Shown: one piece after another, positions 37,432-39,058 of the stretch
Numbering within the stretch: position 1 is the stretch's first letter
Layout of the letters: every line of letters starts with the position of its first letter
From: Puerhibacterium puerhi
GTDB taxonomy: Bacteria; Actinomycetota; Actinomycetes; Actinomycetales; Cellulomonadaceae
NCBI RefSeq assembly: GCF_009846865.1
Contig: NZ_WUWN01000013.1
Coordinates: 1 to 64,000, forward strand
Length of the DNA: 64,000 nt
Reading direction: 5' to 3'
The notes under the pieces: generated by a model
Seen by the model: only the letters and a program-made list of their open reading frames with translations
Database searches by the model: none
What the model was told of the DNA's origin: nothing
Made by a program: the position numbers and the translations under genes

Positions 37432-38025
37432 CTACCGCTCGCGGCCTGCGCCCGCCAGCGCGCCGCGGACGGCCGAGGTGAGCGTGGGCCGCGGGTCGGC
37501 GGGGTCGCGGCGCGCCACCGCGTGCAGCAGCAGGCCCTCGGCGGCGGCCGCGACGGCGGCGAAGGCGGCCTGGGGGTCGGCGGCCCCGAGCCGCGCCAGC
37601 ACCGGCACCGCCCAGCCGGCGAGCGCGGTGCGGCCGCGGGTCGCGCGCTCGCGCAGGTCGGGGTCGTGGCTGGCCTCGAGGAAGACTGCCAGGCGCGCGG
37701 TGGTGGCGACCAGGTCGGGGCCGGTCGCGTGGGCGAACCAGGCGCACAGGACGTCGACGAGCTCGTCCGGCGTCCGGGGGTCCGGCGCCGCCTCGAGCCC
37801 GGCGAGGTCGCGGGCGGCCAGCTCGTCGGTGACGCCGGCCAGCAGCGCGGCGCGGGTGCGGAACCAGTTCGACGTCGACCCGCGGGGCAGGCCCGCGCGC
37901 TCGTCGACCCGGGCGTGCGTGAGGGCCCGGACGCCCGCGGTGCCCACCAGGTCGATCGCGGCGTCGAGAGCGCGCGCCCGGGTGGTCGGCGGGGCCGGCG
38001 ACGGCGGGGCTTCGGACGACGGCAC
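37432..38025 (-). CDS. TetR-family transcriptional regulator
   Basis: 197 aa. N-terminal TetR helix-turn-helix: ALDAAIDLVGTAGVRALTHA, RVDERAGLPRGSTSNWFRTR, then a ligand-binding helical domain. GTG 38025 has TAGAGT (38032-38037, minus strand) six bases upstream, so it is probably leaderless. It diverges from an alpha/beta hydrolase whose promoter contains a palindrome, so it likely represses that gene and perhaps itself. Ligand unknown. Confidence 0.88.
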   Translation of the reverse strand: MPSSEAPPSPAPPTTRARALDAAIDLVGTAGVRALTHARVDERAGLPRGSTSNWFRTRAALLAGVTDELAARDLAGLEAAPDPRTPDELVDVLCAWFAHATGPDLVATTARLAVFLEASHDPDLRERATRGRTALAGWAVPVLARLGAADPQAAFAAVAAAAEGLLLHAVARRDPADPRPTLTSAVRGALAGAGRER

Positions 38026-38055
38026 GCGAGCACTCTAGCGCCGGGACGCCGCGTT

Positions 38056-38098
38056 CACTACGGATGTGGTAGACACCGCACTACGAACGTAGTAGCGT
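38056..38098 (+). promoter_or_regulatory. Hydrolase promoter with embedded TetR-type operator
   Basis: -35 TAGACA (38070-38075), 17-bp spacer, -10 TAGCGT (38093-38098), then six bases to the ATG. The spacer holds the palindrome CTACGAACGTAG (38081-38092: arms CTACG/CGTAG). A second, weaker element CACTACGGATGTGGTAG (38056-38072) covers the -35. Repressor bound here would exclude RNA polymerase. Confidence 0.7.
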
Positions 38099-38104
38099 CG
38101 GTGC

Positions 38105-39058
38105 ATGGACGCCACCAGGAGCCGCGCGGGCGGGGCCGCGGCACTCATCGAAGCCCCCGCCGTGCCGGTGCTCGACGGCGTCCGGCACGAGGACGTCCGG
38201 GTCGGCGACCTGCGGATGCACGTCGCGCGCGCCGGCCCCGACCCTGCGACGAGCGACGCCACGCCGGTCCTGCTGCTGCACGGCTTCCCGGAGCACTGGT
38301 GGCAGTGGCGCAAGGTCATCCCGCTCCTGGCCACCGACCGCGCGGTGCTCTGCCCCGACCTGCGCGGCAGCGGCTGGACCGACGCGCCGGACGACGGGTA
38401 CGACATCGGGACGCAGGTGGCGGACGTCGTGGGGCTCCTCGACGCCCTCGGCCTCGGCCTCGGGCGCGTGCACGTGCTGGGACACGAGTGCGGGGCGCTC
38501 GTCGCCCTGCGGCTGGCGCTGGACCACCCGACGCGGGTCGCGAGCGTGGTGAGCATGACGGTGCCGCACCTGTGGCTGCGACGGAGCGCCCGGCTGCTGG
38601 CGACGCTGCGCAAGGTCTGGTTCGACCCGCTGCTCGCGGTGCCCGGGCTGGGGCTGTCGCTGCTCTCGCGCGGGCGGCAGCGCCTGCCGCGCCACCTGCT
38701 CACCACCCACGTGAAGGTCCCCGGCGCCATCGGCCCGCGGGACGTCGAGCTCTACCTCGAGCGGCTGCGAGAGCCGGTGCGGGCGCGCGCCGCGGTGGCG
38801 GCTCACCGCGACCTGGTCATGCGGGAGCTGAGCGGCGTCCTGCGCGGCGCCTACGCCGGACGCACGCTCGAGGTGCCGACGGTCGCGCTGCTCGGGGCCG
38901 GCGACTCGCTCTCCGACGTCCGCCTGCTGGGCGGGTACGAGGGGCACGCCGCCGACCTCACGATCGAGATCTTCCAGGACGCCGGGCACTTCCTGCCCGA
39001 GGAGCGCCCCGAGCGCGTCGTGGACGTCGCCCGCGGCGTGTTCGCGCGGGCCGCCTGA
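38105..39058 (+). CDS. Alpha/beta-fold hydrolase, epoxide-hydrolase-like, with Glu at the nucleophile position
   Basis: 317 aa. Oxyanion region LLLHGFPEHWWQWRKVIPLL and PDLRGSGWTDAP as in epoxide hydrolases and haloalkane dehalogenases. The nucleophile-elbow motif reads GHECGA where the family has GHDWGG/GHDxGA, so the nucleophilic Asp is replaced by Glu. The acid (LLGAGDSLSD) and His (DAGHFLPEERPE) regions are kept. The residue change could mean altered chemistry or loss of activity. Leaderless promoter under the divergent TetR gene, hence probably induced by a small molecule that it also processes. Confidence 0.82.
   Translation: MDATRSRAGGAAALIEAPAVPVLDGVRHEDVRVGDLRMHVARAGPDPATSDATPVLLLHGFPEHWWQWRKVIPLLATDRAVLCPDLRGSGWTDAPDDGYDIGTQVADVVGLLDALGLGLGRVHVLGHECGALVALRLALDHPTRVASVVSMTVPHLWLRRSARLLATLRKVWFDPLLAVPGLGLSLLSRGRQRLPRHLLTTHVKVPGAIGPRDVELYLERLREPVRARAAVAAHRDLVMRELSGVLRGAYAGRTLEVPTVALLGAGDSLSDVRLLGGYEGHAADLTIEIFQDAGHFLPEERPERVVDVARGVFARAA

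Follow-up and report, generated by a model that had tools for sequence, protein, structure and literature searches.

A TetR-family regulator gene and a divergent hydrolase gene with putative operators interleaved with predicted leaderless promoters in Puerhibacterium puerhi and related bacteria

In the tetR/tetA system, a TetR-family gene lies divergent from its target with two palindromic operators in the intergenic region, and both promoters are repressed (PMC3511530). TetR regulators located less than 200 bp from a divergent gene mostly repress that gene (PMC3511530), and in mycobacteria and Streptomyces the divergent regulators are mostly found within this distance, with palindromic motifs derived from comparison or footprinting; the available portions of these papers state no fixed pitch between operator and promoter and no fusion with leaderless promoters (PMC4482099, PMC3511530). 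A further related case is CifR-cif of Pseudomonas aeruginosa, where a TetR-like repressor is divergent from the gene of an epoxide hydrolase, the latter being part of a three-gene operon, and is freed by epoxides (PMC8244358). According to the title of a paper cited in the same source, CifR has two binding sites, a likeness to the present locus in the number of sites (PMC8244358). The layout described below does not appear in the titles and abstract openings of the literature searched, which was covered in part, and five operator strings searched in PMC full text matched only an unrelated virus paper.

Here we describe the control region between a TetR-family gene and an alpha/beta hydrolase gene in Puerhibacterium puerhi, located in a window of 64,000 nucleotides (the whole stretch of contig NZ_WUWN01000013.1 that was analysed, positions 1 to 64,000). 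The features of the locus are as follows.

37432..38025, minus strand: TetR-family regulator gene, 197 aa, GTG start at 38025-38023, probably leaderless
38032..38037, minus strand (38037 down to 38032): TetR-gene -10 TAGAGT, then N6 and GTG, read from the sequence
38055..38060, minus strand: possible weak TetR-gene -35 TAGTGA with a 17-bp spacer, suggested by eye
38057..38070, no strand: O1, weaker putative operator copy ACTACGGATGTGGT, one mismatch against ACTAYNNNNRTAGT
38070..38075, plus strand: hydrolase -35 TAGACA, from the sequence and the GAC of relatives
38076..38092, plus strand: hydrolase promoter spacer, 17 bp, from the sequence
38080..38093, no strand: O2, main putative operator, perfect palindrome ACTACGAACGTAGT, 14 bases, motif present in relatives
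38093..38098, plus strand: hydrolase -10 TAGCGT, first base common with O2, from the sequence and relatives
38105..39058, plus strand: alpha/beta hydrolase gene, 317 aa, ATG after N6 from the -10, leaderless as judged from the sequence

The hydrolase gene thus shows the arrangement TAGACA-N17-TAGCGT-N6-ATG, in which 12 bp separate the first T of TANNNT (38093) from the ATG (38105). A TANNNT about 12 bp ahead of the start is a mark of leaderless bacterial genes, above all in Actinobacteria (PMC3160421). A preceding sequence-only reading had taken this arrangement for a complete leaderless promoter, a prediction supported by the sequence and by the relatives, and had given the divergent TetR gene its own leaderless -10 about 80 bases away, which agrees with TAGAGT-N6-GTG and with the 79 bases between the two start codons. 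The palindrome which it placed wholly between the -35 and -10 does fill the spacer, but the 12-mer that it quoted is too short; ACTACGAACGTAGT extends over 38080-38093, and base 38093 is common with the -10. The weak second copy that was said to cover the -35 is present as O1, 23 bp upstream of O2, but it only abuts this hexamer, with an overlap of one base, or three if O1 is extended to CACTACGGATGTGGTAG (38056-38072). The proposal of a TetR-type operator within a leaderless promoter is supported by sequence and comparison, with the corrections that this operator belongs to a pair and touches the -10. On its other side O1 covers the site of the candidate TetR -35 (38055-38060) of our own reading. 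As in tetR/tetA, two putative operators lie between divergent genes and overlap both promoters, the overlap at the TetR promoter depending on this weak -35 seen by eye. Unlike tetR/tetA, the target is an enzyme instead of a pump, both genes look leaderless, and the operator pitch equals the -35/-10 pitch, with operator bases that double as promoter bases.

It is very likely, as judged from sequence comparison, that the locus is an autoregulated TetR switch with operators interleaved with leaderless promoters. The repressor and the divergent hydrolase gene would use one common 79-bp control region, where TetR dimers would bind at O2, flanked by the two hexamers of the hydrolase promoter, and at O1, beyond the -35. 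A dimer on O2 would keep RNA polymerase from the leaderless promoter of the hydrolase gene, and a dimer on O1 would block the leaderless promoter of the TetR gene itself and would assist at O2. A ligand, possibly the substrate of the hydrolase, would free the repressor. With an operator pitch of 22 or 23 bp being that of the -35 and -10, repressor and polymerase would read overlapping bases.

One rival reading takes the palindrome for a chance inverted repeat. When the 79-bp intergenic region was dinucleotide-shuffled 2000 times, 79 of the shuffles contained a perfect 6+6 palindrome with a gap of 2, and the 64-kb window holds 77 such palindromes, so that O2 alone is not significant; it is the comparison with relatives, and not the palindrome itself, that decides the reality of O2. 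Two copies of the motif 22 or 23 bp apart appeared in none of 2000 dinucleotide shuffles. With up to one mismatch allowed, the 3.9-Mb genome has five matches to the motif, namely O1 and O2, a perfect site in contig C6 and, in contig C45, two sites with one mismatch each, which on inspection by eye were judged to be chance; the control, the same pattern read backwards, has 19 matches per strand. When both strands of the window are searched for a loose leaderless pattern (TNRACN-N16-18-TANNNT-N5-8-RTG), the single match is at the hydrolase promoter. A TetR-alignment scan of genome contigs gave 290 confirmed candidates, of which the best 80 are used for the counts; these 80 loci are spread over 33 different labels of genus or higher-group rank, among which are group names given to metagenome bins. 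Searched as ACTAYNNNNRTAGT with at most one mismatch within a 280-bp region at the TetR start, the motif adjoins the TetR gene in 76 of the best 80 of 290 loci. Of 1428 control segments taken from these loci, 9 contain it, and among these 9 are real pairs in a displaced position. In the remaining four loci (L120, L125, L129, L142) the sites are likewise paired, but at other places in the locus than the TetR start. With sequence, position and pitch conserved and the motif rare in the genome, coincidence is refuted by the relatives, and we leave it virtually no probability. The target genes of the 76 loci with adjacent sites cluster with the hydrolase type of the window in 54 cases, the rest being small membrane-like and assorted proteins (starts were chosen naively, and L101, L119, L147 and L150 are probably in the wrong frame). 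That the site tracks the TetR subfamily across genera and differing target genes argues against binding of the palindromes by another protein or activation by this regulator, and a protein bound over the core promoter should block it; a few TetR-family members such as AtrA do activate (PMC3511530), and we consider this possibility very unlikely here.

It might also be that this TetR does use the palindromes as operators and that transcription nevertheless starts from other promoters with ordinary 5′ UTRs, the TANNNT match being incidental, as could be argued from the Shine-Dalgarno-like leaders of single-site relatives and of the second hydrolase described below. Among the best 80 of 290 loci, the site pitch is 22 bp in 39, 23 bp in 9 and of other spacing in 5, and a single site is present in 23, mostly with leadered genes, so that paired sites with leaderless genes are not a strict requirement. 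Among the 48 loci whose pitch is 22 or 23 bp, all counted (the first two sites being used for the three-site L113), the TANNNT -10 begins on the last base of O2, a T, in 45, and the start codon follows 11-13 bases past O2 in 42; in 37 of these the distance is 11, the same as in the window. Such fixed positions, and the leaderless mark that they reproduce (PMC3160421), speak against incidental matches, and we hold separate leadered promoters to be improbable. The -35 moves with the pitch as well: GAC directly follows O1 in 35 of 39 pitch-22 loci and is shifted by one base in 6 of the 9 pitch-23 loci, preserving the -35/-10 spacing (35:1 vs 3:6, Fisher p 7e-5 with relatedness ignored); the window obeys the latter rule. 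Points that count against our preferred reading of leaderless promoters interleaved with operators are that O1 in the window is imperfect and that a conserved -35 is described as absent from M. tuberculosis promoters (PMC3898074).

On the TetR side, the left half of O1 is ACTATA in 27 of 28 loci in which the TetR start is 5-7 bases off and in 1 of 20 otherwise; read on the other strand this is TATAGT, a candidate TetR-gene -10. The association is weakened by the relatedness of the 80 loci, since a relatedness-aware comparison left only 2 independent pairs on supported branches, which agreed in nearly all random pairings and were not significant. In 16 of the other 20 paired loci, the stretch from O1 to the TetR gene holds TANNNT-N5-8-RTG, a loose pattern. 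In these last two analyses L112 and L146 gave no usable score for the TetR -10, the site search having probably landed elsewhere. A quick tree of 81 TetRs places the paired layout on both sides of the midpoint, with 11 changes needed, and one alignment (A3) comprises 49 of the 80 loci and the window, L094 and L115 being omitted for a stop in the stretch. Several further observations were made along the way. L094 and L113 carry three operator copies instead of two, and the TetR homologue of L035 (G050 C1:2942631-2943221) has one in-frame TGA. More distant TetRs (L041, L042, L043, L047, L053, L055) have similar palindromes before other kinds of genes, which by eye were identified as FAD-dependent-looking proteins and one reductase-like protein.

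The 197-aa regulator is placed in the TetR family by its predicted structure, with a helix-turn-helix and an all-helical C-terminal ligand domain. Pfam matches are TetR_C_31 (E 3.6e-19) and TetR_C_6, with no TetR_N match listed; the AlphaFold2 model is all-helical (mean pLDDT 91.4; helices 15-30, 37-44, 50-54 onward), and Foldseek gives whole-length matches to TetR-family structures including SCO7518, EbrR and KstR. EbrR and SCO7518 of Streptomyces are among the nearest solved structures by both sequence and fold, and EbrR is multidrug-binding, but at about 22-30% identity in the fold alignments the ligand is not transferable. The hydrolase matches Abhydrolase_1 (E 9.8e-27), and among its nearest relatives of solved structure are epoxide hydrolases and fluoroacetate dehalogenases. 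Epoxide hydrolases of the alpha/beta hydrolase fold are defined by an Asp nucleophile. In an alignment of 49 loci and the window, 49 of the 50 aligned hydrolases carry Asp at this position, and the hydrolase of the window has Glu128 (GHECG) instead, so that it lacks the defining residue of this class, a difference from CifR-cif; the protein may be altered, decaying or affected by a sequencing error. An epoxide as ligand would be a guess by analogy with CifR-cif (PMC8244358). A search for defence systems gave no PADLOC match.

The switch had been called single-input, which understates its reach, as the genome holds one more perfect ACTAYNNNNRTAGT-type site (C6:39062-39075; G000, L183) before a second alpha/beta hydrolase, which has a Shine-Dalgarno-like leader and no TetR gene alongside. 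Isoptericola variabilis JZ7 (G001), taken here to be of the same genus, has another alpha/beta hydrolase with a perfect site upstream (contig C414), and in its neighbourhood, too, no TetR coding sequence was found. The idea that the second hydrolase has its own TetR gene alongside was rejected on tblastn, which with the TetRs of the single-site class and of the window returned nothing significant near C6 or C414 of G001 (best E 0.10); a few bases that by eye look like the 5′ end of a TetR gene are no more than suggestive. A stricter pattern that allowed no mismatch had matches in 18 of 20 genomes, nearly all adjacent to a TetR gene, and further sites were found in G000, G001, G444 and G446. 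The TetR orthologue itself is kept in JZ7 (contig C344; L062, L074) with a perfect O1 and the conserved TetR-gene -10 TAGAGT, and dN/dS between it and the regulator of the window is about 0.24, pointing to purifying selection. The local hydrolase of JZ7 has suffered an in-frame internal deletion, so that only N- and C-terminal portions remain, and both O2 and the hydrolase -10 (GAGCGT) have decayed. Because the TetR gene and O1 persist despite this deletion and decay, an additional role in trans is probable for the regulator in Isoptericola, where it would govern the second, distant hydrolase through the orphan operator. The absence of a gene from G001 is weaker evidence, since this assembly is about 91% complete.

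The logic of this locus is that of a textbook autoregulated TetR switch, and what is unusual, and conserved at the sequence level, is the interleaving of its operators with predicted leaderless promoters. We give roughly even chances to a further-reaching reading, in which a conserved composite holds up to three promoter hexamers in or on two operators set at promoter pitch, such that repressor and polymerase sites would co-evolve, and in which this composite is being rewired in Isoptericola, the local enzyme decaying and the repressor being kept for the orphan hydrolase. From the comparison, the operator, promoter, start site and targets can be predicted at the sequence level for a TetR subfamily found under 33 genus or higher-group labels. 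The locus also provides a candidate leaderless switch of compact size for use in Actinobacteria, and an example of a regulator that appears to have outlived its neighbouring enzyme. As judged from the sequences, the layout recurs in many related soil bacteria and is a widespread variant of a familiar gene switch.
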